A stretch of DNA of 64,000 bases from Vineibacter terrae (GTDB taxonomy: Bacteria; Pseudomonadota; Alphaproteobacteria; Reyranellales; Reyranellaceae): positions 62,001-126,000 of the forward strand of contig NZ_VDUZ01000016.1 of the NCBI RefSeq assembly GCF_008039615.1. Reading direction: 5' to 3'. Shown piece after piece: positions 2,489 through 28,049 of the stretch. Position 1 is the stretch's first letter. Each line of letters starts with the position of its first letter. The notes under the pieces are model-generated. The model was not told the DNA's origin and made no database searches. It was given only the letters and a program-made list of their open reading frames with translations. The translations under genes and the position numbers were made by a program.

Positions 2489-3688
2489 ATGTCCACGCCC
2501 TCCTCCTTGCTCCCCTCCATGCCGCGCCGCGCCACGTTCGCCCTGATCACCCTGCCGGTCCTTGCCGCTGCGACGATCGGCGGGTGGCTGCTGTGGTCCG
2601 GCGGCAGCACGCCCGGCAGCGCGCCGCTCACCCTGAAGGTCACGGTGGGCGACATCGAGGATACGGTATCGGCCGTCGGCACCCTGCAGCCGCGCGAGTA
2701 CGTCGATGTCGGCACCCAGGTGTCCGGCCAGCTGCAGCGGATCACGGTCGATTTCGGCGCCAAGGTGGAAAAGGGCCAGCAGCTGGCCCAGATCGACCCG
2801 ACCGTATACCAGGCCAAGGTCAGCGCCGACGAAGCGCAGCTCCAGAGCCTCAAGGCCCAGCTCGCCGACAAGCAGGCGCAGAAGATGCTCGCCGAGCAGC
2901 AGCTGAAGCGGCAGAAGGATCTGCTGGCGTCGAAGGCGACCAGCCAGGACGCGCACGACATCGCCGACGCCAACCTCAAGATCGCGGCGGCGCAGATCGC
3001 CATGATCGAGGCGCAGATCCAGCAGACCGAATCGACCTTGAACGGTGACCGCGCCAACCTCAACTACACGAAGATCTATGCCCCCATGTCGGGGACCGTC
3101 GTCAACATCACCGCCAAGCAGGGCCAGACGCTGAATGCCAACCAGCAGGCGCCGATCATCCTGCGCATCGCCGACCTCGATCCGATGACCGTCTGGACCC
3201 AGGTGTCCGAGGCCGACGTGCCGCGGCTGAAGATCGGCATGCAGGCCTATTTCACGACGCTGGGGCAGCCTGACCGCAAGCGCTTCGGCAAGCTGCGCCA
3301 GATCCTGCCGACGCCCGAGGTGGTCAACAACGTCGTGCTCTATTCGTCGCTGTTCGAGGTCGAGAACCCCGAAGGCGACCTGCTGCCGCAGATGAGCGCC
3401 CAGGTCTTCTTCATCGTCGGCGCGGCGAGGCAGGTGCCGCTCGTGCCGGTGACGGCGCTGCGGCCTGGCCGCGGCCCGGCGCCCGACGGCAAGAAGATGT
3501 ATCGCGTGCGCGTGGCCGAGAACGGCGGCATCGTCGAGCGCACCATCGAGGTCGGCGTGATGAATCGCGTCTCGGCCGAGGTCAGATCCGGCCTCAAGCC
3601 GGGTGACGAGGTCGTCATCAGCGACGCTGGTGCCCCGGCGGCGAAGCCGGCGTCCAAGCCCGCCGGCACGAGGATGCCGAGGCTATGA
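2489..3688 (+). CDS. macA: MacA-like periplasmic adaptor of a tripartite efflux pump
   Basis: The 399-residue membrane fusion protein has an N-terminal membrane anchor at about residues 14-36 ([20 protein letters not shown]). A lipoyl-like half-motif follows with [19 protein letters not shown], then a long coiled-coil hairpin (about 95-190) rich in Gln, Ala and Lys. The returning half-motif is [20 protein letters not shown], followed by beta-barrel and membrane-proximal domains. This order is that of HlyD/RND-type adaptors of the MacA branch. It should link the MacB ATPase-permease to an outer-membrane channel, and macB plus a NodT-type channel follow in the same direction. The ATG at 2489 has only a weak upstream AGG. 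Confidence 0.88.
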
Positions 3689-3716
3689 GCACCGGCTGGT
3701 CGCGGGCGGATCCCGC

Positions 3717-5702
3717 ATGAACGAGGCTTCACCGGGCGCGCCGCGCGTCGATCCGGCCGCTGCGGGCGCGCCGTTGATCGAGCTGCGCGACATCACCAAG
3801 ACCTATATGCGTGGCGACGTGGCGACCGAGGTGCTGCACGGCATCTCGCTCGACATCCACCCCGGCGAGTTCGTCGCCATCATGGGTGCCTCGGGCTCGG
3901 GCAAGTCGACGCTGATGAACCTGATCGGCCTGCTCGATCGGCCGACCTCGGGCAGCTATCGATTCGACGGCGAGGAGGTGTCTTCACTCGATGCCGATCG
4001 CCGCGCGCTGCTGCGCCGCGAGGCCTTCGGCTTCATCTTCCAGCAATACAACCTGCTGGCCAGCGCCACGGCGACCGAGAATGTCGAGGTGCCGGCGATC
4101 TACGCCGGCGTGCCGCATGGCGCGCGCGTGCAGCGGGCCCAGGAGATCCTCACCACCCTGGGGCTGGGCGAGCGGCTGAACCATCGGCCGAGCCAGCTTT
4201 CGGGCGGCCAGCAGCAGCGCGTGTCGATCGCCCGGGCGCTGATGAACGGCGGCGCGGTGATCCTGGCCGACGAGCCGACCGGCGCGCTCGACAGCAAAAG
4301 CGGCGAGGAGGTCATGCGTCTGCTGCACGACCTCAATGCCGCCGGCCATACCGTGCTGCTGATCACCCATGACCCGGCGGTGGCGGCGCAGGCGCGGCGC
4401 GTCATCGAGATCAAGGACGGTCATATCGTCACCGATCGCGGCACGACCGCACCGCCGCCGGGCGCGGCCGCGGCATTGCAGCGCCGCACGGAGCACCGCG
4501 CGTCGGCGATCCCGGACACGATCGAAGCCGGCAAGATGGCGCTGCGCGCGCTGCGCGCCAACCTGATGCGCACATTGCTGACCCTGCTGGGCATCATCAT
4601 CGGCGTCGCGTCGGTGGTGGCCATGCTCGCGATCGGTGACGGCGCCAAGCAGCAGGTGCTGAGCCGCATCACCGCCATGGGCACCAACCTGCTGCTGATC
4701 CGGCCGGGCGCGCCCAATGTGCGCATGGCAGGTGCGTTGACGGCCACGCTGGTGCCGGCCGATGCCGATGCCATCGACGATCTTCCGAACGTGGCGGTGG
4801 CAGTGCCCGAGTATCCCGGCCAGGTCACCGTGCGCTATCAGAGCCGCGACTATGTCACCCAGGCGGACGGGACCTCGCAGTTCTTCCCGCAGGCCCGCGA
4901 CTGGCCGGTGGCCAGCGGCACCTTCTTCAGCGACACCGACGTCAAGAGCTACACGCCCGTGATCGTGCTGGGCCAGACGGTGGTGCGCGCGCTCTATGTC
5001 GACGGCACCGATCCGATCGGCACCTTCGTGCTGGTCAACAACGTGCCGTTCCAGGTCATCGGCGTGATGAGCGCCAAGGGCGCGTCGCCGTACGGCGCCG
5101 ACCAGGACGACATCGTCTTCACCCCGATCACGACAGGCGCCTTGCGCCTGTTCGGCCAGCGCTATGTGCGGTCGATCACCGTGCAGGTCGAGGATGTCAG
5201 CCGGATCGACGAAACCCAGGAGGCGATCCGCCAGCTGCTGATCGCGCGGCACAAGTCGGAGGATTTCCAGATCCGCAACATGGCCTCGATCCTGGAGGCC
5301 GCGACCGAGACCCAGAACACGCTCACCATCCTGCTCGGCTCGATCGCGGCGATCTCGCTGCTGGTCGGCGGCATCGGCGTGATGAACGTCATGCTGGTCA
5401 GCGTCACCGAGCGCACGCGCGAGATCGGCATCCGCATGGCCACGGGCGCCCGGCGTTTCAATATCCTGCTGCAGTTCAACACCGAAGCGCTGGTGGTGTG
5501 CGCCATCGGCGGCCTGATCGGTGTCGTGGCCGGGCTGGGCGCTGCCTGGGCGTTCGCCCAGCTCGGCCGCCCGGTGATGTTCTCGGCCGGGCCCGTCATC
5601 CTGGCTTTTGCCTGCGCCTTTGCCACCGGGCTGCTCTTCGGCTATCTGCCTGCACGCAAGGCGGCCAACCTCGATCCCGTCGTGGCCCTGGCCGCAGACT
5701 GA
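3717..5702 (+). CDS. macB: MacB-type ABC transporter, fused ATPase and permease
   Basis: 661-residue protein. The N-terminal ABC domain has Walker [10 protein letters not shown] (about 57-65), signature LSGGQQQR and Walker [15 protein letters not shown] membrane part then follows, with a first TM segment near [20 protein letters not shown], a large periplasmic MacB core domain, and three C-terminal TM helices including [21 protein letters not shown]. Length matches MacB (about 650). The start is placed at ATG 3717, because upstream in-frame codons run inside macA and are arginine-rich shadow. MacAB pumps export macrolides, lipopeptides or siderophore-like molecules from the periplasm through a TolC-type channel. 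The substrate is unknown here. Confidence 0.92.
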
Positions 5703-5748
5703 TGACGTCCTCAGCTCAACTTCCCTGCCCGATGGTGTGAGTGTCGTG

Positions 5749-7161
5749 ATGCGTCGCCTTCTTGTCTCGATCGCCCTTGCCGGCACGCTTGCCGGGTGCT
5801 CCGCGCTGGGGCCCGATTACCAGCCCGAGCAGGTCGACGTTCCCGAGCACTGGCAGTGGAGCAATCAGGGCACCGGCGTCTGGCCGGACCTCGCCTGGTG
5901 GCAGGTCTTCCGCAGCCCGGAGCTGGACCGCCTGATGAGCGAGGCCGCGGCCGGCAACCGCGACCTGAAGGCGGCCGTGGCGCGTATCGCCCAGGCCGAG
6001 GCGCAGGCCAAGGTCGCCGGCGCGGCCGTGTATCCGACCATCGGCTTCGATGGATCACTCCAACGCAGCTCGCAGACGAGCTCGTTCACCGGTCGTCGGG
6101 CGACCGTGAACTCCTACAGCATCGGTCCGACTGCGGGCTACCAGCTGAACCTGTTCGGCGCCGACTTCGCAACGGCGCGGGCGGCGACGACACGAGTCGA
6201 AGCCAGCCGCTACGACCGCGAGACAGTGGCGCTCACCATCAACACCGGCGTGGCGCAGACGTATTTCCAGATCCTGACCTTCCGCGAGCGTGTGCGCATC
6301 GCCAACAATTCGCTGACAACCGCGACTCGGCTGCTGCAGCTGCTCGAGGAGCAACGCCGCATCGGCACGACATCCGATCTCGAAGTCGCTCAGCAGCGGG
6401 CCTCGGTGGCGACACAACGGGCCGCCGTGCCGGCCCTGATACAGGCCGAGCGTGAGAGCCTGGCTGCTCTGGCGCTGCTGCTGGGCCGCAACCCGCAGGG
6501 CTTCGAGCTGCAGGCGCGCAACCTCGAAGGACTGACGCTGCCGCCGGTCATTTCGGGCATGCCCTCGGAGCTGCTGTTGCGGCGGCCCGATATCCGCACG
6601 GCCGAGGCCAATCTGCGCGCCGCCAATCTCGACATCCAGGCCGCGCGCGCAGCGCGCTTTCCCAACATCTCGCTCACGGCAAGCGGCGGCACTGCCAGCG
6701 CGCTGCTGGCGAGCCTGTTCTCACCGGCGAGCATGCTCTACACGGTGGGTGTGAGCCTGACCGCGCCGATCTTCCAGGGCGGTCGTCTCGAAGGCCAGGA
6801 GGAATTGACCAAGGCGCGCTACGAGGAGCTCATCGAAACCTACCGCACGGCGATTCTGTCGAGCTTCCGCGATGTCGATACGGCGCTGAGCGCCATCGAC
6901 CAGTTCCGCCAGCAATATGCCTACAATCTGCAGGCGCGCACCGAGTCGCGCGAGGCCTATCGGCTCGCCGAGCTGCGCTACCGTGCCGGCACCATCGACT
7001 TCCTGACGGTGCTCGACGCGCAGCGCACGGTCCTCGTGGCCGAGGATGCGCTGGCGCAGTCGCAGCTTGCCCATATCAATGCCGTGGTCAGCCTCTATCA
7101 GGCGCTGGGCGGCGGTTGGTCCGGGGCGACCGCGCAGGTGCCGAGGATCGGGCAGCAATAG
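5749..7161 (+). CDS. NodT/TolC-family outer-membrane efflux lipoprotein
   Basis: This is a 470-residue protein. A signal peptide ends in the lipobox LAGC (Cys17), so it is probably lipid-anchored. The body has the two-fold OEP (outer membrane efflux protein) repeat: alpha-helical stretches such as LDRLMSEAAAGNRDLKAAVARI and LRAANLDIQAARAARFPNISL, and the second-repeat ELRYRAGTIDFLTVLDAQRTV. The motif RRPDIRTAEANLRAAN is typical of the NodT branch. Start ATG 5749 lies 46 bases after macB, giving the third component of the same tripartite pump. The longer frame from 5608 overlaps macB and is not expected to be translated. Confidence 0.9.
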   Translation: MRRLLVSIALAGTLAGCSALGPDYQPEQVDVPEHWQWSNQGTGVWPDLAWWQVFRSPELDRLMSEAAAGNRDLKAAVARIAQAEAQAKVAGAAVYPTIGFDGSLQRSSQTSSFTGRRATVNSYSIGPTAGYQLNLFGADFATARAATTRVEASRYDRETVALTINTGVAQTYFQILTFRERVRIANNSLTTATRLLQLLEEQRRIGTTSDLEVAQQRASVATQRAAVPALIQAERESLAALALLLGRNPQGFELQARNLEGLTLPPVISGMPSELLLRRPDIRTAEANLRAANLDIQAARAARFPNISLTASGGTASALLASLFSPASMLYTVGVSLTAPIFQGGRLEGQEELTKARYEELIETYRTAILSSFRDVDTALSAIDQFRQQYAYNLQARTESREAYRLAELRYRAGTIDFLTVLDAQRTVLVAEDALAQSQLAHINAVVSLYQALGGGWSGATAQVPRIGQQ

Positions 7162-11522: not shown

Positions 11523-12392
11523 ATGGCGACAGTCGCCTTTCTCGGCCTGGGGGTGATGGGCTTTCCAATGGCGGGCCATCTCGCCGCCAAGGGGCACACC
11601 GTGACGGTGTACAACCGCACCTTCGCCAAGGCCGAGCAGTGGACCACGAAGCACAAGGGACAGGCGTGCAAGACGCCGCGCGAGGCAGCCGAAGGCGCCG
11701 AGATCGTGCTCTGCTGCGTCGGCAACGACGATGACCTGCGCTCGGTCGTGCTCGGGCCGGACGGCGCGCTGGCGGGCATGAAGGCCGGCACCATCTTCGT
11801 CGATCACACCACGGCGTCGGCCAAGGTGGCGCGCGAGCTCTACGCGCTTGCGCGCGAGCAGGGCATCGACTTCATCGACGCACCGGTGTCCGGCGGCCAG
11901 GCCGGGGCCGAGAACGGCGTGCTGACCGTGATGTGCGGTGGTGACCAGGGGCCGTTCGACCGCGCCAAGCCCGTCATCGACAGCTTCGCGCGCGCCTGCT
12001 CCCTGATCGGGTCCTCCGGCGCCGGCCAGCTCACCAAGATGGTGAACCAGATCTGCATCGCCGGGTTGGTCCAGGGACTGGCCGAAGGCGTGAACTTCGG
12101 CATGAAGGCCGGCCTCGACATGGAGAAGGTGATCGGCGCCATCTCCAAGGGTGCCGCGCAAAGCTGGCAGATGGAGAACCGCTGGAAGACCATGGTCGAG
12201 GGCAAGTTCGAGTTCGGCTTCGCAGTCGACTGGATGCGCAAGGATCTCGGCATCTGCCTGGACGAGGCCAAGAGCAACGGCGCTCAGCTGCCGGCGATCG
12301 CGCTGATCGACCAGTTCTATGCCCGCGTCCAGGCCCGCGGCGGCAAGCGGTGGGACACGTCGAGCCTTATCCAGCCGCTCGCCAAGCCGTAG
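11523..12392 (+). CDS. Beta-hydroxyacid dehydrogenase (3-hydroxyisobutyrate dehydrogenase family)
   Basis: 289-residue NAD(P)-dependent oxidoreductase. The Rossmann N-terminus FLGLGVMGFPMAGHL contains the family fingerprint. The substrate-binding motif is DAPVSGGQAGAENGVLTVM, and the catalytic Lys lies in GAGQLTKMVNQ. Family members oxidise 3-hydroxyisobutyrate, tartronate semialdehyde or related short beta-hydroxyacids; the exact substrate cannot be read here. A clear AAGGAG ribosome binding site precedes ATG 11523. Genes for the rest of valine or glycerate metabolism are not adjacent. Confidence 0.85.
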   Translation: MATVAFLGLGVMGFPMAGHLAAKGHTVTVYNRTFAKAEQWTTKHKGQACKTPREAAEGAEIVLCCVGNDDDLRSVVLGPDGALAGMKAGTIFVDHTTASAKVARELYALAREQGIDFIDAPVSGGQAGAENGVLTVMCGGDQGPFDRAKPVIDSFARACSLIGSSGAGQLTKMVNQICIAGLVQGLAEGVNFGMKAGLDMEKVIGAISKGAAQSWQMENRWKTMVEGKFEFGFAVDWMRKDLGICLDEAKSNGAQLPAIALIDQFYARVQARGGKRWDTSSLIQPLAKP

Positions 12393-18181: not shown

Positions 18182-18220
18182 ACGCTGCTCCTCGCGCTTT
18201 CGCGCGGGGAGCAGCGTCTT
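18182..18220 (+). terminator. Long hairpin terminator after the aldo/keto reductase
   Basis: A 16-bp stem (18182-18197 with 18202-18217, one G-U pair) closes a TTTC loop and is followed by TCTT. It sits between convergent genes and could stop transcription from both sides. Confidence 0.75.
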
Positions 18221-18998
18221 ATGGCAGCGCGATATAGACGGCGTCGAAGCGCTCGAGCAGCGCTGCGTCGTTGGCAAGCGCGTCGCGTACAGCCTGCAGC
18301 CCGTAGCTGCGCTTGGCCAGCGCCGCCAAGGCATTCAGGTCCCGAGCGGCCAGGATGCGGATCTCGGCTGACGCGAGCTGCCGGGTTGGGGCGTCGATCT
18401 GGTGCCAGTAGCGGCATGCCATCTCGACGCGCTGCAGGCGATAGCGCGGGTCATACGGCGCCACGGCGATTGCGCGCTGCAGCGCATCGTGGAACAGCGG
18501 TTGCCGCGGGTCGAGATCCTGCTGCGCCATCGCCAGCAGTGTCCATGCAGTAGGGTGCGCGGGCGACAACCGGACGGCGCGCTTCGCCGCATCGGAGGCT
18601 TGCATGAGGCGTTCCGTTGCCCGCTCCGGCGGGTCGGCGCGCGTTGCCTGCACCAGGCGCACGGCGGCCAGCAGGGCGGCCAGGTCGGCATCATCCTGCC
18701 ATTCCAATGCGTGCTGCAGCGCTCCGGCAGTGCTCTCGAGCTGCGCGGCAGTCAGCTTGGCGCCGTCAACCTCGGCCCGTTCCGCGGTGCTGCGGGCGTC
18801 GAGCAGCTCTATGGCCGCGAACAGGCGCGGCACGGCCAGCAACAGGAGCAGCACGCCAGCCAGTACGGCGATCAGCGCGACGATCAGACGTGCCGGACGT
18901 CGTCGCTCGGGATCGAGTGCGTAGTAGCGCTCGAGCACCGGATGTGGCTTTTCTGCAGGTTCGGTCACGGCGTCCCGTGGGGACGAGGATAGCTTCAT
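18219..18998 (-). CDS. Hypothetical single-pass membrane protein with TPR-like region
   Basis: 259 residues. A cytoplasmic N-terminus is followed by one strong membrane segment (LIVALIAVLAGVLLLLLAV, about 38-58). A helical part follows with a repeat-like block PAHPTAWTLLAMAQQDLD ... LQRAIAVAPYDPRYRLQRVEMA, resembling tetratricopeptide repeats. I do not recognise the family. It is the last gene after the Wzc-like kinase on the same strand (90 bases downstream), so it may take part in polysaccharide export or assembly. ATG 18998 is preferred over the GTG three bases upstream. Confidence 0.6.
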   Translation of the reverse strand: MKLSSSPRDAVTEPAEKPHPVLERYYALDPERRRPARLIVALIAVLAGVLLLLLAVPRLFAAIELLDARSTAERAEVDGAKLTAAQLESTAGALQHALEWQDDADLAALLAAVRLVQATRADPPERATERLMQASDAAKRAVRLSPAHPTAWTLLAMAQQDLDPRQPLFHDALQRAIAVAPYDPRYRLQRVEMACRYWHQIDAPTRQLASAEIRILAARDLNALAALAKRSYGLQAVRDALANDAALLERFDAVYIALP

Positions 18999-19088
18999 CA
19001 CGCGGCGCGGTTGCTGGGTTCTCTCCCGATCGTACCCGATTGGAAGAGGTTCCCGCCATACGATGTATGCGCCGTGCGGACGACGATA

Positions 19089-21371
19089 TCAGCCGTCGCC
19101 GTAGTAGCGCCTGTAGCCGCGGTAATAGTAGGCGCCGCTATCGGTGTAGTCGTACTGGGCATGGCGGCGCAGGTCGACCTGGCTCAGCACGATGCCCGAC
19201 AGGCGCGCGCCAGCCTCGTAGACCATCTTGATGCCTGTCGTTGCCACGTCGCGCCGCGTCTTCTCCCAGCGCACCACGAAGATCGTGGTATCGGTCTGCC
19301 GCACCAGCAGCAGCGCGTCGGACACCGCCAGCACCGGCGGGCTGTCGAGCACGACCAGATCGAAAGCGTCACCCAGCTGCTGCAGCAGGCGGCGCATGCG
19401 CAGGCTGCCCAGCAGATCGGTAGGAGACGGCGGCCGCTTGCCAGCCACGACGTAGTAGAGCCCGGTCTTAGGCTCGACCTGCACCAGATCCTCCAGGTCG
19501 CGCTGTCCGGACAGGAATTCGGCGAGGCCGGCGTCATTCTCGACCGCCAGGTTCTTGTGCAGCGACGGCTGGCGCATGTCGCAGTCGATGATCAGCGTGC
19601 GCGCGCCCGAGGCAGCCGAGGCGGCAGCGAGCGACAGCGCCGTGGTGGTCTTGCCCTCGCCCGGCACCGAGGACGTGACCACGACCGTGCGTTGCGGGTG
19701 GTCGGCGCTGCTGAGCGCGATGCCGGTGCGGATCGTGCGCAGCGCCTCCGAGAACGCCGAGTTCGGCTTGTCCACGACATTGAGCCACGGCTTGTGGCCG
19801 CGTCGCAGCCGGCCGGCCGATTGGTAAGGCACCATGCCCAGCGCCGCGACTCCGGTCTGCTGCTCGAGCTGATGCACCGAGCGGAAACCGGAGTCCATGA
19901 GCTCGATGCCGATCGACAGGCCGACGCCCAGGGCCAGCGAGGCCATGAAGGCCATCAGCACGATCAGCTCCTTGCGCGGCGCGATCGGAAAGACGGGTGC
20001 CGTCGCCTCGTTGATCTGCTTGGCGTCGCCCTTCTTGTCGACGCTGGCCAGCACATTGACTTCCTGCAGGCGGGTCAGCAGGGTCGAGTAGAGCTGCTTG
20101 GCGGTATCGAGCTCGGTCTGCAGCGCCCGCAATTGCGCCGAGCCTTCAGTCTGCCGCTTTAGCTCGCGCTCCAGCCGATCGACCTCCGCCTTCAGCTTGT
20201 TGGCGTTCTCGCGCGCCGCCTTGGCTTCGGCCTGCAGGTTGGTGGCGCTGCGCTGACGTTCCTCGTTCAACCGAGCGCGGACGGCGGCCAGACGCTTCGC
20301 CGCCTTCATGTATTCGGGATGGCCCGGCGCGGCATAGGACGCGACAGCCTGGAACTCCTTCTCGGCGCTCGCCACGTCGGCCAGCAGGCCGCTGCCTGCT
20401 CCGTCCGCCGAGACACCCTGCTTGACGCCCAGCTCGCGCTGCGTCGCCACCTGCTCGGCGGCGAGCAGCTGCGCCCGCACGTCGGCCAGCGTCTTGGTCA
20501 GGGACGAGGCGTCGCTGGTGTCGTACATGGCGTTGTCGGCCCGGAACTTCGCGAGGTTCCGCTCGGCCTCGACCACCTTGGCTCGGGCGTCGTCGATACG
20601 GCCGCTGAGGAACTTCATCATCTCCAGCGGCCCTTCGGACTTCTCCTTTTTCTGGTCGTCGATGTAGGTGCGGATCGCCTGATTGACCGAGGCGGCGGCG
20701 ATATGGGGGTCGGCCGCGCGGAAACGCACCGTCAGCACGAGCGAGTTCGGGTTGGTCTGGGTCGAGAGCCCGCCCAGCCAGGCGTCGGCGATCTGGGCGA
20801 CAAGCCTTTCGCGTGCTTCCGGCGTCATCGCCGCCAGGCGACGTTCCACCTCGTCGGGGGAGACCTGTGGCTTGGCCGGCGCATCGCTCAGCCGCAGGAT
20901 CTGCAGCACCGGCTGAAAGATCGCGCGCAGGCGGCTTTGCTCGGGAGGCGCCAGCTCCGGATTGTAGAGCGGGCTCTTGTCCAGTCCCAGGGCCAGGACG
21001 GTCTGGCGCGCCAGCCGTTCGCCGCGCAGCTTCGACGCCTCGGTCTCCATGACCCGGTAGTCGATCGGCTGCTGCGTCGAGTCCATGCTGGGTCGCATGA
21101 TGTCGCGGCTTTGGGGCTCGACGACCATGTCAGCCTGTGCCTGGTAGACGGGCGCCAGCTGATTGGCCACAAGCCACGCGATCGTGGTGCCGACCAGGGC
21201 CAGGCCCCCGATCAGCAACTTGTGCCGTCGCAGCGTCCCGAGGATCTGGCGAGCCGAAATCCCCGAACCACCGTCGTCGCCACCGCCGCCACCGGGCGGT
21301 GCCGGCAGTGGCTGTGGCGTCTCGGCAGGCAGATTGTTGTACCCAGTCTGCAAACGGCTGACGTTGGCCAT
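19089..21371 (-). CDS. Wzc-type polysaccharide co-polymerase with bacterial tyrosine kinase domain
   Basis: 760-residue inner-membrane protein. A Wzz domain with a first TM near residues 52-72 (LLIGGLALVGTTIAWLVA) leads into a long periplasmic coiled-coil region. A second TM follows (LIVLMAFMASLALGVGLSI), then a cytoplasmic BY-kinase: Walker A SSVPGEGKTT (about 567-576), Walker A' LIIDCDMRQPS and Walker B LVVLDSPP. The C-terminus is a tyrosine cluster of eight Tyr within QYDYTDSGAYYYRGYRRYY, the usual autophosphorylation tail. Such proteins control chain length and export of capsule or exopolysaccharide together with a Wza-type channel. ATG 21371 is chosen because AAGGAAGG lies just before it. 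Confidence 0.9.
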   Translation of the reverse strand: MANVSRLQTGYNNLPAETPQPLPAPPGGGGGDDGGSGISARQILGTLRRHKLLIGGLALVGTTIAWLVANQLAPVYQAQADMVVEPQSRDIMRPSMDSTQQPIDYRVMETEASKLRGERLARQTVLALGLDKSPLYNPELAPPEQSRLRAIFQPVLQILRLSDAPAKPQVSPDEVERRLAAMTPEARERLVAQIADAWLGGLSTQTNPNSLVLTVRFRAADPHIAAASVNQAIRTYIDDQKKEKSEGPLEMMKFLSGRIDDARAKVVEAERNLAKFRADNAMYDTSDASSLTKTLADVRAQLLAAEQVATQRELGVKQGVSADGAGSGLLADVASAEKEFQAVASYAAPGHPEYMKAAKRLAAVRARLNEERQRSATNLQAEAKAARENANKLKAEVDRLERELKRQTEGSAQLRALQTELDTAKQLYSTLLTRLQEVNVLASVDKKGDAKQINEATAPVFPIAPRKELIVLMAFMASLALGVGLSIGIELMDSGFRSVHQLEQQTGVAALGMVPYQSAGRLRRGHKPWLNVVDKPNSAFSEALRTIRTGIALSSADHPQRTVVVTSSVPGEGKTTTALSLAAASAASGARTLIIDCDMRQPSLHKNLAVENDAGLAEFLSGQRDLEDLVQVEPKTGLYYVVAGKRPPSPTDLLGSLRMRRLLQQLGDAFDLVVLDSPPVLAVSDALLLVRQTDTTIFVVRWEKTRRDVATTGIKMVYEAGARLSGIVLSQVDLRRHAQYDYTDSGAYYYRGYRRYYGDG

Positions 21372-21685
21372 CGCCCTTCCTTGCGCACGCACGCATAGAG
21401 GCGGCCCATCAGACCGCACGCCCTGGACTTTGAAAAATGATTGCTAAATTACTCTCGCGGAATGGAAATTGGAACCGAATTATACTTCATGTGTACCCAA
21501 CGATACCGACAACATCTTGTGTTCGGCTGTTCAACAGCCACATATCATTGAAATACGCACGCACATTCTATTCTGTTTCCTCCACTCTGGAGTGGATTTC
21601 CTGCGTTCCTCAAAACCCTGCAGCGTACTGACAATTTGGCAAATGAGTGTTCACACGTCAACTTGCATTTGGTGACGGACGAACT
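21372..21685. promoter_or_regulatory. AT-rich 314-bp gap upstream of the Wzc-like gene
   Basis: Base composition is visibly AT-richer than the flanking genes, and no gene is supported. It holds two perfect inverted repeats: GGCTGTT-C-AACAGCC at 21525-21539 and TCCACTC-TG-GAGTGGA at 21581-21596. The position directly before the Wzc-like gene suggests a separately regulated promoter, so wzc is probably not simply co-transcribed with the transporter genes upstream. Confidence 0.55.
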
Positions 21686-22324
21686 TTAATTGCCCTGTGC
21701 GTGCAAGCTGTCAGAGAAGCTGCGCGTGATGCCGGCGGTGAAGAAGGCCAGGACCGAGCGCTCGCCGACACGCAGATCGACCTTGGCGGGCATTCCCGGA
21801 AGGAGGTGGTGGCGGCGTGGACCGCTGCCTGGCGGCTCAGGCGGGATGGTGATTCGCACGATGAGTGCAAAATCAGGGTGATATGGCGTTCTGGCCGTAG
21901 GGGAGGTATCCGGTGCGATGCCCACCACCCGGCCTTTGATCGTGCCGTGGCGGATCGGGTGAAGCGTGACGATGGCGTCCTGGCCCATGGCAACGGCGCC
22001 GATATCGTCGCTGGCGACGCGGGCCTCGATCTCGAAGTGTCCGTCGCCGGCAGCGGCGCGAACCACGCCTGGAATCGTCACCACGTCCTCGATCTGCGCG
22101 ATCTGCATCCAGCCGACGGCGGCAGCGACCAGAAGCGCCAGGGTATAGATCAGCCAGGTCGCATAGGGCGAGTGCCGCCGCTGGGCGATTGCTTCGGCAT
22201 CCGGCAGGAAATCCGCGAACCTGGCGCTGGCACCGGGCAGGCGGCCTTCGGCGAGCGCCCGCGTCAGCGCCGCCTCTGTCGGCGTCGGCTTCGCCGTCAC
22301 CTTGGCTGCCGTGAGATCGGTCAT
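21686..22324 (-). CDS. Short HlyD-like protein lacking the lipoyl/coiled-coil hairpin
   Basis: 212 residues, about half the length of HlyD/PrtE adaptors (roughly 430-480). The N-terminus resembles the family: FLPDAEAIAQRR, then a single TM at about 56-76 and QIAQIEDVVTIPGVVR. The text then passes straight to the family's C-terminal barrel: FEIEARVASDDIGAVAMGQDA, TLHPIRHGTIKGRVVGIAPD, YHPDFALIVRI, LLPGMPAKVDLRVGERSVL. The roughly 220-residue segment that normally carries the lipoyl half-motifs and the TolC-contacting coiled coil is missing, with no frameshift or stop seen. It starts 13 bases after the ABC transporter gene, so the two are surely an operon. It could be a reduced adaptor or an in-frame deletion remnant. 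Confidence 0.75.
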   Translation of the reverse strand: MTDLTAAKVTAKPTPTEAALTRALAEGRLPGASARFADFLPDAEAIAQRRHSPYATWLIYTLALLVAAAVGWMQIAQIEDVVTIPGVVRAAAGDGHFEIEARVASDDIGAVAMGQDAIVTLHPIRHGTIKGRVVGIAPDTSPTARTPYHPDFALIVRITIPPEPPGSGPRRHHLLPGMPAKVDLRVGERSVLAFFTAGITRSFSDSLHAQGN

Positions 22325-22337
22325 GCTGCCGCTCCGC

Positions 22338-24596
22338 TCAGGCCGGGCTCAGGGGCGCGTCGACGCCGAGGCCGGCGAATGCCACGGGCGGCGCTTTCTG
22401 CCCTCGGCTGGCCTCGGCCATGCGAAGACGGGCATAGGCCATCACCTCCGTCGGCGGGCCGAAGCGCTCGATGCGGCCGTCGATCATCAGCGCCACCTTG
22501 TCGGCAATAGCCAGCGGCGCCAGCCGGTGTGTGATGATGATGATCGTCCGGCCACGCGCGTTGGCACGCAACGTCCGCAGGATCTGCTCCTCGCTTGCCG
22601 GGTCCAGCGCGCTGGTCGCCTCGTCGAGCACGATCACGCGCGGGTTGCGGATCAATGCCCGGGCGATGCAGAGCAGCTGCTTCTGCCCCGCCGAGAGGCC
22701 GCCGCCGCGCTCGCCAAGGACCGTGTTGTAGCCATGCGTGAGGCGCTGGATGAAATGATGCGCGCCCACGAATTTGGCGACGGCGACAATGCGGGCTGTG
22801 TCCTTGTCGGCGGCGCCCATGGCGATGTTCTCGCGCACTGTGCCGGCGAAGAGCTGAACCTCTTGCGGGACGCAACCGATCTGCGCCCGCAGCTGCGCCG
22901 GCGACACATGGGCGATATCGGTGCCATCCATCAGGACGCGGCCCGAGGTCGGCGCATAGAGGCCCTGGATGAGGTTGGCGACCGTGGTCTTGCCGGAGCC
23001 GGATGGCCCGATGATGCCGACGATCGAGCCGGCTTCGATATGCAGGTCGATGTCGCGCACGACGGGCGCGGCGGTGTCGTCATAGCGAAAGGACGCGCGC
23101 TCCAGCGCGACCTCGCCCTCGATCGGCGGCATGGGAACGAAGCCGCCGGGGCGGCTTTCGGTCGGCATGCGCATCATGTCGTCGACATGCGCCAGCGCCG
23201 CTCGCACGGACTGGACCGTGTGCCAGGCGCTCGCCACCTGGCGCATCGGCGTCAGGGCGCGGCCCGCCAGCATGTTGACGGCGACCAGGCCACCGATCGA
23301 CAGCCGCTGCCCGAGCAGCTCCCAGACGCCGAGCAGGACCACCCCGAGCAGTACGAACAGCTGCAGCACGCCGGTCGCCGAGGCCACCACGTTGGCGAGG
23401 TTGTTGGCGCGGAAGCCCGTCCAGGCTGACTGAGCCACGCGCGCGCCCCAGCGCCGCTCCATCTCCGCTTCCAAGCCCAGCGCCTTGATCGTGCCGGCGT
23501 TGCTCACGGTCTCGTTGAGCGCCGAGCCCTTGGCCGCCAGGGCGTGGAAGCTGTCGTCTATATGGCGCTTCTGGGCACGGTGGGTGAGCAGCGAGATGCC
23601 GGCAAAGAGCGGCAGCATCGCGATCACGAAAACGCCGACCGGCCAGCAGATCAGGCAGAGGAGCCCGAGATAGAGTCCGGCGAAGCTCAGGTCGATGATG
23701 AGCGACGGCATCTGGCCGGTGAAGAAGGCACGCAGCGTGTCGAGCTGCCGCAGGCGCTCGGCGATGACGCCCGACGGTGTGCGCTCGAAATGCCGATAAG
23801 GCAGGTGGATGAGATGGCGGACCACCTCGCTCGACAGCAGCGCGTCGATGCGCGCGCCGGTATGGCTCGACACGTAGCCGCGCAGGATCCGCAGGGCGAG
23901 ATCAAACAGATAGGCGATGGCCATGCCGCCCGCGAGCACCGCCAGTGTCGCCCCCATCGCCTCGGGCCGGCCTTGGACGACGACGTGGTTGAAGACCGCC
24001 ATCATGAAAAGCGGCGTCGCCAGCGCCAGGGTGTTGATCACGAAAGAGGCGGCCAGCAGCTCGCCCAGCACCCGCCTGACGCGGCTCCGCAACTGGTCCT
24101 TCCAGTCGATCTCCTCGGCCGGGCGCTGTTTGCGCACAAGGATCGCCGTGCCCCCGAGCGCCCCGAGGTCGTCGGCCGAGGCCGCCCGGACGATGCCGGT
24201 CGCGACGTCAACCACCGAGAACGCGCCGCCCTCCCGGCCCGCGACGACGTGCGCCGGCCGGCCGTCGCGGCCGACCAGCACGAACGGTGTCGGCAGTCCG
24301 GGCAAGCTGGCGATCGTCGCGCGAGTCTGCATCGCGTGGAACCCGGCACGGGCGCAGGCGAGGAGGAAAAGGCCCTCGTCCATTCCCGTGTCGACGATGG
24401 GCACCAGGGCGCGCAGCTCGGCTTCGGTCATCGGATGGCCAAGCAGCTCGGCGATGCGAAGAAAGCATCGCGCCAGCGTGTCGGTCGAGCGCGACGGCGC
24501 GGCGACCGACGGATCGGTCAGGAGCGCGGGACCCATGGCCGCCCGTGCAGCTGCCAAGCTATCGGAATCTTCCAAAATCGGGCTGTCGAGAGCCAT
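22338..24596 (-). CDS. Type I secretion ABC transporter with C39-like N-terminal domain (HlyB/LapB type)
   Basis: 752 residues. An N-terminal domain (about 40-155) has the C39-peptidase fold pattern (VLVGRDGRPAHVVAG, FSVVDVATGIV). I see no Q-x5-DCG catalytic Cys motif, so it is a non-cleaving C39-like domain. A six-helix transmembrane domain follows (about 170-460), then the ATPase: Walker A GPSGSGKTT (about 530), signature LSAGQ (Ala replaces the usual Gly of LSGGQ), Walker B VIVLDEATSALD and ITHRL. HlyB-like transporters of this type export unprocessed RTX or adhesin proteins. No RTX protein and no TolC are adjacent. It is the first gene of the minus-strand run and is divergent from the secreted protein at 24967. 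Confidence 0.88.
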   Translation of the reverse strand: MALDSPILEDSDSLAAARAAMGPALLTDPSVAAPSRSTDTLARCFLRIAELLGHPMTEAELRALVPIVDTGMDEGLFLLACARAGFHAMQTRATIASLPGLPTPFVLVGRDGRPAHVVAGREGGAFSVVDVATGIVRAASADDLGALGGTAILVRKQRPAEEIDWKDQLRSRVRRVLGELLAASFVINTLALATPLFMMAVFNHVVVQGRPEAMGATLAVLAGGMAIAYLFDLALRILRGYVSSHTGARIDALLSSEVVRHLIHLPYRHFERTPSGVIAERLRQLDTLRAFFTGQMPSLIIDLSFAGLYLGLLCLICWPVGVFVIAMLPLFAGISLLTHRAQKRHIDDSFHALAAKGSALNETVSNAGTIKALGLEAEMERRWGARVAQSAWTGFRANNLANVVASATGVLQLFVLLGVVLLGVWELLGQRLSIGGLVAVNMLAGRALTPMRQVASAWHTVQSVRAALAHVDDMMRMPTESRPGGFVPMPPIEGEVALERASFRYDDTAAPVVRDIDLHIEAGSIVGIIGPSGSGKTTVANLIQGLYAPTSGRVLMDGTDIAHVSPAQLRAQIGCVPQEVQLFAGTVRENIAMGAADKDTARIVAVAKFVGAHHFIQRLTHGYNTVLGERGGGLSAGQKQLLCIARALIRNPRVIVLDEATSALDPASEEQILRTLRANARGRTIIIITHRLAPLAIADKVALMIDGRIERFGPPTEVMAYARLRMAEASRGQKAPPVAFAGLGVDAPLSPA

Positions 24597-24900: not shown

Positions 24901-24966
24901 TGTTATAAAAATTAGGTAGGTTTGTGCATCTACCAGAAAACACTGTATTTTGCAGGACGCGCTATC

Positions 24967-26058
24967 ATGCTGTTCACGCGCTTCGTTCCTGCCCTCGCCG
25001 GCCTGGTCCTTGGTGTGGGCGCTCTGACATCAGCCTTTGCGGCCCCGCCGCAGCTCGGGGGCTCCCGAAGCGTCGAACCGACGGTGCTGGTGGCACAGGC
25101 CAACGATCTTGCCGACGCGATCGCCCGCAACGAAGGTGACTGGCGCAACCGGGTTCGGAGCTATTTGCAGGCTGCCTATCCGGACCGCGTTGCCACGACC
25201 GACCGTGCCATCCAGCTCCTGAAGTCGGTCAACAGCAAGTGCTTGGCCTCCCGCACCTGCCCGCCCAACGTGCTCAACGAAATCGCCCTTATTTCAAAGG
25301 GTTCGGTCTGTGCAGCCTACATCATCGACTCGGTCTGCGTGCGCCGGTTCACGGTGCCGCGCGGAGCGCAGGCGTTTGACTTCGGGCCGAGCGGCCAGCC
25401 GGTCTATCCCGGCATGCGGGCAGTCAGCCCGGGAGATCCGCGGATCACGGGCAGCAGCCTGACGGGAGTCCGCTACAACGACGCCTATCCGGCCTCCGGC
25501 GATTCGATCATCGGCGTGACGGGCTTCAAGACCCCGATGCCGGAGGGCAAGTACCGTGTGGTGCTGGTCAGCGGCAAGCGGCCGCTGGCCCAGGCGGTGT
25601 CGACACCGTTCGGACGGACGATCCAGGCGAACGGCCGCAGCATCGAGGTGATGGTGGCCGGGCCGGATCGCTGGCTGCCGCGCGGCGCGCTGGCCAACGG
25701 GTCGCCCGAGCAGGTGTTCGCGCCCAACAACGTGCTGCCGGGCAGCGCCGCGGCGATCGTGTTCGATATCGACCACCGCGGCGGGGATCTGCTGCTGCAG
25801 TTCCCGCAATCGGCTGAGGTCGGCGCGCTGATGATCGAGCCGGCCGGCCAGCCGTCCGGGTTCGTGCTTGATTCGACGGCCCAGTCGATGGGACCGGTTT
25901 CCAATAGCGGGTGTCTGGAGCAGGAGTCCCGGATCGACCGGGCCCTGGCCGAGCTGCCACAGGATCAGCCGCCGGGCGTGCGGAACTGCCCGGGTGGCCT
26001 GTGCCAGCCGCCGCCGCCGCCGTGCCAGGGCGCCTGTCAACCGCTGAGCCGCAGCTAG
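24967..26058 (+). CDS. Secreted protein with a possible carbohydrate-binding beta-sandwich and Cys/Pro tail
   Basis: 363 residues. A clear Sec signal peptide (LAGLVLGVGALTSAFA) would be cut after residue 25. A helical region follows with two Cys pairs (KCLASRTC, VCAAYIIDSVC). A beta-rich middle begins FDFGPSGQPVYPGMRAV and contains SGDSIIGVTGFKTPMPEGKYRVVLVSG. This resembles the galactose-binding-like module at the N-terminus of some pectin and rhamnogalacturonan esterases (FDFGP...G.Y.V.L). The tail CPGGLCQPPPPPCQGACQ is Cys/Pro rich. ATG 24967 begins the signal peptide. It heads a plus-strand run with the beta-barrel and Wza-like genes, so a periplasmic role in glycan export is inferred. 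The exact family is unknown to me. Confidence 0.6.
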   Translation: MLFTRFVPALAGLVLGVGALTSAFAAPPQLGGSRSVEPTVLVAQANDLADAIARNEGDWRNRVRSYLQAAYPDRVATTDRAIQLLKSVNSKCLASRTCPPNVLNEIALISKGSVCAAYIIDSVCVRRFTVPRGAQAFDFGPSGQPVYPGMRAVSPGDPRITGSSLTGVRYNDAYPASGDSIIGVTGFKTPMPEGKYRVVLVSGKRPLAQAVSTPFGRTIQANGRSIEVMVAGPDRWLPRGALANGSPEQVFAPNNVLPGSAAAIVFDIDHRGGDLLLQFPQSAEVGALMIEPAGQPSGFVLDSTAQSMGPVSNSGCLEQESRIDRALAELPQDQPPGVRNCPGGLCQPPPPPCQGACQPLSRS

Positions 26059-26083: not shown

Positions 26084-27415
26084 GTGCGTATTTCATCGAC
26101 CTTCAGGGCCGGACGATCCTTCGCGGTCTTCCTGGCTGTTTGCGGCGGCATGGCTGGTGCTCTCGATAGCCTGCCCGCTTCAGCCCAGTACTCGGTGCCG
26201 GCGACGACGCCGACGCCACCCCGTCGCCCGGCTGCCGCTCCGGCGCCGGACGACCTGTCGGCCCGCGACGCCTCTGTCCTGCGGCGTCCGCGCGCCGACC
26301 CGCCCGATGGCGTGCCCATCGGCAGCTTCGTGCTCTTCCCTCGTATCGAGGTCGATGGCGAGTACGACGACAACGTGTTCCGCACGCGCAACAACCGGGA
26401 GAGCGATTTCATCTTCCGGGTGCGGCCGGGCCTGACGCTGAGCAGCGATTGGGATCAGCACGGACTTGATCTCTACGCCCTGGGTGAGATCGGGCGATAC
26501 GCCGATCTATCGAGCGAGAACTACGAGGCTTTTACCGTCGGTGGTCGTGGCCGGGTCGATCTCACCGACGAGCTGATATGGACGACCTACGGCGAGTTTT
26601 CACGCAACGCGCTATCGCGCGGCGCTCCCGCGCTGTTCGCTCTGCCGAGCGCCGAGCGGACGATCGTCAACGTCATCACCGGCGGCACGGATCTGACCTA
26701 CAACGGCGATCCGTTCTACGGCCGCATCGGTCCGCGCTTTCGCCGCTTCGATTACGTGCAAGGCGGTTCGAGCCAAGACAACTTCAATGTCTTCGACATC
26801 AGCGGCCGTATCGGCTATCGCATCACGCCTGAGTTCTCGGTTTTCGTGGACCCGAGCTATGAGTGGGTTCGCTACGACAAGCGGTCTTTCGGCATCGATC
26901 AGGACAACGAGGGCTTCGACGTTCGGCTCGGTGTGTCCTATGACGTGACCCGGACCATTACAGCCGAGTTCGGCGGCGGTTACTATCGCCGCACCTATGA
27001 CGACCCCAACACCAAGCCCCAATCCGGCTTCTCGTTCCTGGGCAGGCTGTATTGGAACCCGCTTGACAACGTGTCGATCGAAGCCGAGGCGCGGCGCTCA
27101 TTCTCGCAGTACCGCACGAACCTCAGCAATGCTGTCGCAGTGGGCAACGCCATCGAGACCTATTTCGGTATCCGTGCCGGGTGGGAGCCCTTCGATCCGC
27201 TGCTGATCGACGGCGGTGTCGCATACGCGCAATATCGCTACCCCGGTCAGGGCTTCAAGGAAGATTACTGGTTCGTCGACATTGGCGCGAAGTACTTCAT
27301 CAACAGGAACTTCTACCTCGGGCCGCGATATTTCTTCGAGCATCGCACCGCGCGGCCGAGCGCGGGCAACTATAACGACAACCGCTTCCTGTTCACGATC
27401 GGCGCGCAGCTGTAA
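26084..27415 (+). CDS. Outer-membrane beta-barrel protein of the exopolysaccharide-associated type (BBP2-like)
   Basis: This 443-residue protein has a signal peptide ending PASA (about residue 34). A Pro-rich linker follows, then a body of alternating strands from VLFPRIEVDGEYDDNVFRTR to the terminal FLFTIGAQL, with many aromatic and charged alternations. The opening DGEYDDNVFR...DFIFRVRPGL is typical of the beta-barrel porin 2 (DUF2320/BBP2_2) family found in polysaccharide export loci. The start is GTG 26084, since the signal peptide needs the upstream residues. It probably forms an outer-membrane pore or scaffold working with the Wza-like lipoprotein encoded 40 bases downstream. Confidence 0.8.
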   Translation: MRISSTFRAGRSFAVFLAVCGGMAGALDSLPASAQYSVPATTPTPPRRPAAAPAPDDLSARDASVLRRPRADPPDGVPIGSFVLFPRIEVDGEYDDNVFRTRNNRESDFIFRVRPGLTLSSDWDQHGLDLYALGEIGRYADLSSENYEAFTVGGRGRVDLTDELIWTTYGEFSRNALSRGAPALFALPSAERTIVNVITGGTDLTYNGDPFYGRIGPRFRRFDYVQGGSSQDNFNVFDISGRIGYRITPEFSVFVDPSYEWVRYDKRSFGIDQDNEGFDVRLGVSYDVTRTITAEFGGGYYRRTYDDPNTKPQSGFSFLGRLYWNPLDNVSIEAEARRSFSQYRTNLSNAVAVGNAIETYFGIRAGWEPFDPLLIDGGVAYAQYRYPGQGFKEDYWFVDIGAKYFINRNFYLGPRYFFEHRTARPSAGNYNDNRFLFTIGAQL

Positions 27416-27455: not shown

Positions 27456-28049
27456 ATGATGAATGTGTTTCAGCCTTGTCGGCGAGGTGGCCGTGCCGCT
27501 TCTCTCCTCGTGCTCGTCGGTGCGCTGGGGCTGGCCGCGTGTGAAGGCGGCACGACCAGCACCGGCGTGCCGTGCCCGACCGCCAAGGCGCCGGTCGGCG
27601 GCCTCGACTACAAGCTGGGCGTCGGCGACAGGGTCAAGGTCACCGTCATCGGCCAGCCGGAGCTGGGGAGCGAAGCCGAGGTTGACGCCGGCGGCAAGCT
27701 CGTGATCGCCCTTGCCGGCGAGGTGCTGGCCGTCAACCATACAGTGTCCGAGATCCAGGCTGAGATCACGCAGAAGCTGAAGTCCAATATCCTGGTCGAT
27801 CCGCGTGTGTCGGTGCAGGTGTCGGGCTATCGCCCGGTGACGGTGCTTGGCCAGGTCCGCCAGCCGGGCCGCTATCCGTACTCGTTCGGCCTTGATGTTC
27901 GGGGCGCCACGGCGCTCGCCGGCGGCCTGGAGCGGCGTGCCAGCCCGGAGCGGTCGGTCATCTTCCGCCCCGGGCAGTCCTGCGACGCCAAGCCGGATAC
28001 GCCGCTGTTCCCCGGCGACACTGTCGAGGTGCTGCGGCGCGGCGGCTGA
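27456..28049 (+). CDS. Wza-like polysaccharide export lipoprotein (Poly_export/SLBB)
   Basis: 197 residues. A signal peptide ends in lipobox LAAC (Cys29). A Poly_export domain follows, beginning DYKLGVGDRVKVTVIGQPELG and continuing with EVDAGGKLVIALAGEV and ITQKLKSNILVDPRVSVQV. A soluble-ligand-binding beta-grasp (SLBB) segment comes next with YRPVTVLGQVRQPGRYPYSFGLDVRGATALAGG. It is shorter than E. coli Wza (about 380) and lacks a C-terminal amphipathic helix, as is common for the short alphaproteobacterial forms. It is the periplasmic/outer-membrane partner expected for the Wzc-like kinase at 19089-21371. A strong terminator follows. Confidence 0.87.
   Translation: MMNVFQPCRRGGRAASLLVLVGALGLAACEGGTTSTGVPCPTAKAPVGGLDYKLGVGDRVKVTVIGQPELGSEAEVDAGGKLVIALAGEVLAVNHTVSEIQAEITQKLKSNILVDPRVSVQVSGYRPVTVLGQVRQPGRYPYSFGLDVRGATALAGGLERRASPERSVIFRPGQSCDAKPDTPLFPGDTVEVLRRGG

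Follow-up and report, generated by a model that had tools for sequence, protein, structure and literature searches.

Adaptors of the HlyD family are usually seen as bridges to TolC. HlyD and LipC (PDB 8dck, 7sgr and 5nen; TIGR01843) share a cytosolic docking segment, a single transmembrane (TM) helix, a barrel and a C-terminal helix, and the adaptor gene lies directly after that of a type I ABC transporter. The cited natural exception to the bridging role is BesA of Borrelia burgdorferi (PDB 4kks; PMC3807786), in which the TolC-docking hairpin is missing; BesA still has the lipoyl and membrane-proximal domains, and an RND pump is its partner. A further system of relevance is EpsY-EpsX, described as a composite polysaccharide translocon, for which the genes of a short OPX protein and an outer-membrane beta-barrel are neighbours and the locus also holds a Wzc-like gene (PMC9601211).

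The window analysed here, a stretch of 64,000 nucleotides from Vineibacter terrae, contains an adaptor gene that likewise follows a type I ABC gene directly, but its product differs from the HlyD family in having neither lipoyl domain nor helical hairpin. BesA, with its hairpin naturally absent, is the closest precedent; however, the window adaptor has lost the lipoyl domain that BesA keeps, and it pairs with a type I ABC transporter rather than an RND pump. A limited literature search found no description of an adaptor lacking both domains, which is a weak negative.

The adaptor gene is read from 22324 to 21686, and its ATG lies 13 bases past the stop of the ABC gene (Table 1). A preliminary description, which gave no strand, had placed an open frame at this distance behind a complete type I ABC gene, and both points were confirmed; the ATPase motifs are intact in the ABC translation (Walker A GPSGSGKTT, LSAGQ, LDEATSALD and the H-loop ITHR). 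The C-terminal part of the adaptor matches Pfam HlyD_3 (2.1e-6), and NCBIfam type_I_hlyD (TIGR01843) matches with 7.5e-22 over profile positions 308-419 of 422 only. The TIGR01843 score of 77.9 bits is below the curated cut-off of 208.65, while the full-length orthologue at locus L030 reaches 287.3; the short adaptor belongs with TIGR01843 by sequence relationship, and its orthology to the full-length members comes from synteny and the N-terminal motif.

Table 1. Features of the adaptor gene and the surrounding locus (positions in the window).
Feature	Position	Strand	Details
Short HlyD-type adaptor gene	21686..22324	minus	212 aa, ATG start, open frame; Pfam/NCBIfam matches
GGAG Shine-Dalgarno-like element	22332..22335	minus	sequence; in 13-base gap region after ABC reading frame
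Cytosolic docking segment, residues 35-53 (ARFADFLPDAEAIAQRRHS region)	22166..22222	minus	best conserved part; equivalent of HlyD EFLPAHLELIE...
Predicted TM helix, about residues 54-76	22097..22165	minus	AlphaFold2 helix 53-75
Junction at missing lipoyl domain and hairpin, residues 90-96 AAAGDGH	22037..22057	minus	equal length in G002, gapless pairwise alignment
Beta-barrel domain, residues 77-187	21764..22096	minus	AlphaFold2 strands; Z 12-13 against barrels of other adaptors
C-terminal helix, residues 189-211, low confidence	21692..21760	minus	AlphaFold2 model
Type I secretion-like ABC transporter, 752 residues, degenerate C39-like domain	22338..24596	minus	LssB/HlyB-like profile match
Wzc-like polysaccharide co-polymerase/tyrosine autokinase	19089..21419	minus	Pfam/NCBIfam profiles
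VpsP-family-like protein	18219..19001	minus	NCBIfam 2.1e-9, below curated cut-off
Conserved protein, signal-peptide-like start, divergent from ABC gene	24922..26058	plus	likely ATG at 24967
Outer-membrane beta-barrel (BBP2_2, EpsL-like)	26084..27415	plus	Pfam/NCBIfam profiles
Short OPX (Wza-like) polysaccharide export protein	27456..28049	plus	Pfam/NCBIfam profiles

Alignment with nine orthologues shows that both half motifs of the lipoyl domain are gone from the short adaptor, together with the helical hairpin and its TolC-docking tip. Counted from its FLP motif up to the C-terminus it has 174 residues, as against 430-442 in 16 full-length orthologues, with about 257-268 residues absent relative to the latter; the earlier estimate of about 220 skipped residues was thus right about the absence and too low about its size. 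The missing domains were not found in other genes of the V. terrae genome (G000) or of the second genome with a short form (G002, Reyranella sp. CPCC 100927); in V. terrae the best other matches are ordinary full-length HlyDs of at most 27% identity.

The remaining protein was modelled with AlphaFold2 from three sequences only, giving a mean pLDDT of 57.6. The model contains a TM helix (residues 53-75), strands at 80-92, 96-103, 116-121, 128-138, 154-160 and 179-186, and a C-terminal helix, and its residues 78-189 align to the barrels of MacA, ZneB, EmrA and BesA with Z scores of 12-13; model and structural alignment agree in placing a beta-barrel domain next to the membrane. Because the 92-104 aligned residues are spread over stretches of 171 residues in BesA and up to 346 in EmrA of A. 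aeolicus, the lipoyl domain and hairpin appear as an insertion between two barrel strands. With moderate confidence, their removal is predicted to leave a complete barrel with a short turn closing it. The HlyD chains listed for the HlyB-HlyD structure PDB 7sgr are modelled for 165-166 residues only, and the barrel of the short form aligns there; the docking segment of the L030 orthologue aligns to HlyD of PDB 8dck. The preliminary description of an HlyD-type protein that keeps the N-terminal anchor and the barrel is therefore borne out by profiles, alignment and the model of the adaptor alone that it had proposed as a check.

The same description had noted that the gene would be a deletion remnant if only this strain were short, and that conservation of the short form across genomes would speak for function. 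A second species does carry it: the adaptor of CPCC 100927 is 49% identical to that of the window, occupies the same position in its locus and has a junction of the same length. Because this genome is independent, an assembly error is very unlikely, and this explanation was rejected along with a deletion confined to a single strain. The spacing from VVRA to FEI is equal in residue number in the two proteins, and one ancestral deletion is consequently the simplest account; that the short form descends by deletion from a full-length ancestor is clear. The N-terminal motif identified 25 confident orthologues, of which these two alone have open frames below 460 residues; in all 21 that lie outside the genus the frames are long. 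Confident orthologues were collected from overlapping sets of 76 order, 385 class and 15 order-centred genomes, and none in another lineage was short; a single scan of genome contigs gave two matches, CPCC 100927 and a full-length adaptor of Acidocella that is unrelated, and viral contigs held no relatives of the short adaptor.

Two other members of the genus, G001 and G003, have adaptors of other shapes. The distance from FLP to the C-terminus is 174 residues in the window, 167 in G002, 287 in G003 and 418 in G001; the G003 adaptor keeps the lipoyl domain and has a shrunken hairpin, and the G001 hairpin is long with its conserved tip replaced. A BesA-like state, with lipoyl domain kept and hairpin absent, is thus not that of the short adaptor, and G003 comes closer to it. 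Beyond the genus, the tip motif YFPxx[QRK]Y is kept by 13 of 16 orthologues; the remaining three, which belong to a single genus, carry a variant of the tip without any change in total length. The motif is absent from all four members of the genus studied here, so docking to TolC was probably lost ahead of the large deletions. A concatenated tree groups the window genome with G002 (bootstrap 95), then with G001 (91), with G003 branching off first; alternatives are not rejected by the AU test (p 0.085 for G003 next to the pair, and 0.075). A single stepwise shortening with G003 as the intermediate is disfavoured by the best tree, and in view of the 0.085 placement independent shortening is favoured, not proven. 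The ABC gene of G003 (L027, 10254-12161, minus strand) has also lost a domain, the whole C39-like one by a clean internal excision, so that in this genome both partners are reduced.

These graded and apparently parallel losses (tip in G001; hairpin shrunken and C39-like domain of the ABC protein lost in G003; lipoyl domain and hairpin lost in the short pair) are what gives weight to the main rival explanation, a slow decay in which type I secretion is dispensable in the genus, adaptor and ABC transporter are shedding domains, and the short frame is a remnant that happens to be still open. In addition, the ratio of adaptor dN to ABC dN is about 2 in this genus, compared with 1.0-1.5 in the outgroup genus, a sign of relaxed constraint. 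However, the absence of purifying selection that would mark a pseudogene is not what the codons indicate: in a pairwise codon model of the columns retained in the two short forms (189 codons), omega = 1 is rejected with an LRT of 81.5 (1 df), a strong rejection of neutrality since the shared deletion. (Synonymous sites are near saturation, which makes the omega estimate of 0.05 unreliable and the Nei-Gojobori dN/dS of 0.37 probably too high.) Neutral drift would usually have closed one of the two frames, whereas both are open; in a neutral simulation without indels, the chance of this at the total distance of 1.1 is about 0.5% (P about 0.005). Moreover, the domain boundary is clean, the start site is intact, and the ABC gene, which the codon model also finds under constraint, and all other genes of the cluster are intact and constrained in both species. 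The docking segment has the highest identity between the short forms (16 of 19 residues), and its DFLP is invariant in 10 relatives. As judged from these rates, the adaptor is constrained, though less tightly than its ABC partner, and decay is unlikely while being the alternative to be taken most seriously.

The lack of lipoyl domain and hairpin also supports the earlier view that the adaptor would be unable to contact TolC in the known way. Transport across both membranes could in principle proceed by some other contact, with an outer-membrane factor docking directly on the base formed by ABC transporter and adaptor, or with a full-length HlyD joining a mixed ring. For BesA, a deep-interpenetration arrangement has been raised. 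BesA also shows that an adaptor does not in every case need a hairpin (PMC3807786, PMC4446572). TolC-family genes are present in 11 of 11 genomes checked, including that of the window, and the genome encodes further full-length HlyDs; those HlyDs, however, are at most 27-29% identical in the lost region, and the conserved cluster itself holds no TolC gene. In BesA, moreover, the lipoyl domain is retained, and the RND transporter it works with has an extensive periplasmic portion that could extend to TolC, whereas type I ABC transporters have none. A contact of this sort is thus very improbable. (A MacA-MacB-TolC-family efflux operon with a full-length adaptor lies at window positions 2489-7161, about 15 kb away, and is apparently unrelated.)

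The surroundings of the adaptor are those of a polysaccharide-export locus. In both genomes that encode the short adaptor, one strand holds the genes for the ABC transporter, the adaptor and the Wzc-like and VpsP-like proteins, and the other those for the secreted protein, the BBP2 barrel and the short OPX protein; the short OPX and outer-membrane beta-barrel genes are adjacent, so that, by sequence, the neighbours look like a translocon of the EpsY/EpsX kind. The likeness to EpsY-EpsX is confined to these surroundings, and the ABC-HlyD pair is an extra component here. The secreted protein at 24922-26058 has no family match and has a second copy in genus g5; its low-confidence model (pLDDT 48) hints at a CBM35-like jelly roll (hits at E about 0.005-0.01) and is too poor to assign an identity. 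In G001 (L026) the Wzc-like gene is broken into two frames near 11697, either by a real frameshift or by a sequencing error in this draft genome.

Linkage of the ABC-HlyD pair to OPX and beta-barrel genes is stable from Reyranella relatives to distant alphaproteobacterial families (L028, L030, L085, L088, L089, L090 and L091), and includes VpsP-like genes and, at several of these loci, Wzc. It could be argued from this that the ABC transporter and the short adaptor are a dedicated part of the polysaccharide exporter, touching Wzc, the OPX protein or the beta-barrel. Full-length adaptors, however, have the same linkage, and no neighbour has gained a matching domain as judged from gene lengths; such a direct role is accordingly rather improbable. 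The suggestion that cargo is handed to the neighbouring beta-barrel or Wza-like protein finds no specific support for the same reason: these neighbours accompany full-length adaptors too and are not a replacement that arrived with the short form. Transfer of a hairpin to an OPX-type protein has been reported for alphaproteobacterial OMA proteins (PMC2850547); a move of this kind onto the OPX protein here was ruled out, since the lengths of the neighbouring genes show no such gain.

The reading preferred here, which is modestly probable, is that of a functional, reduced HlyD-type adaptor in an inner-membrane ABC-adaptor exporter that lacks TolC docking and releases its substrate into the periplasm. 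In an ancestor of the two Reyranella-group species, a deletion would have taken the lipoyl domain and hairpin from between two barrel strands, leaving the portion that adjoins the ABC transporter in HlyB-HlyD, namely docking segment, TM helix, membrane-proximal barrel and C-terminal helix. The ABC ATPase would carry the substrate over the inner membrane and the short adaptor would stabilise or gate its periplasmic mouth; with hairpin and lipoyl domain gone, no member of the genus keeping the tip motif and TolC genes absent from the cluster, the substrate would then be let go into the periplasm and not into a TolC conduit. In HlyB-HlyD, acidic residues of HlyD are reported to contact basic residues of the HlyB C39-like domain, and there are N-terminal contacts with TM1-2 (PMC11026475). 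The basic positions are not conserved in this ABC protein, where HlyB K56, K58, K62 and R66 align to H, M, A and S; this counts against the reading and leaves the docking chemistry of the adaptor, and its binding to the ABC transporter, presumptive.

From the locus context, a role in polysaccharide export is plausible. The fuller proposal, of a selected-for type I ABC adaptor without lipoyl domain and hairpin, in an inner-membrane exporter that has dropped its outer-membrane half and serves the polysaccharide locus from the periplasmic side, is tentative and falls somewhat short of probable. A conserved adaptor consisting of the base only would show that adaptors serve the ABC transporter in some way besides bridging, and a single genus with tipless long, short-hairpin and base-only forms offers natural variants with which this role may be tested.
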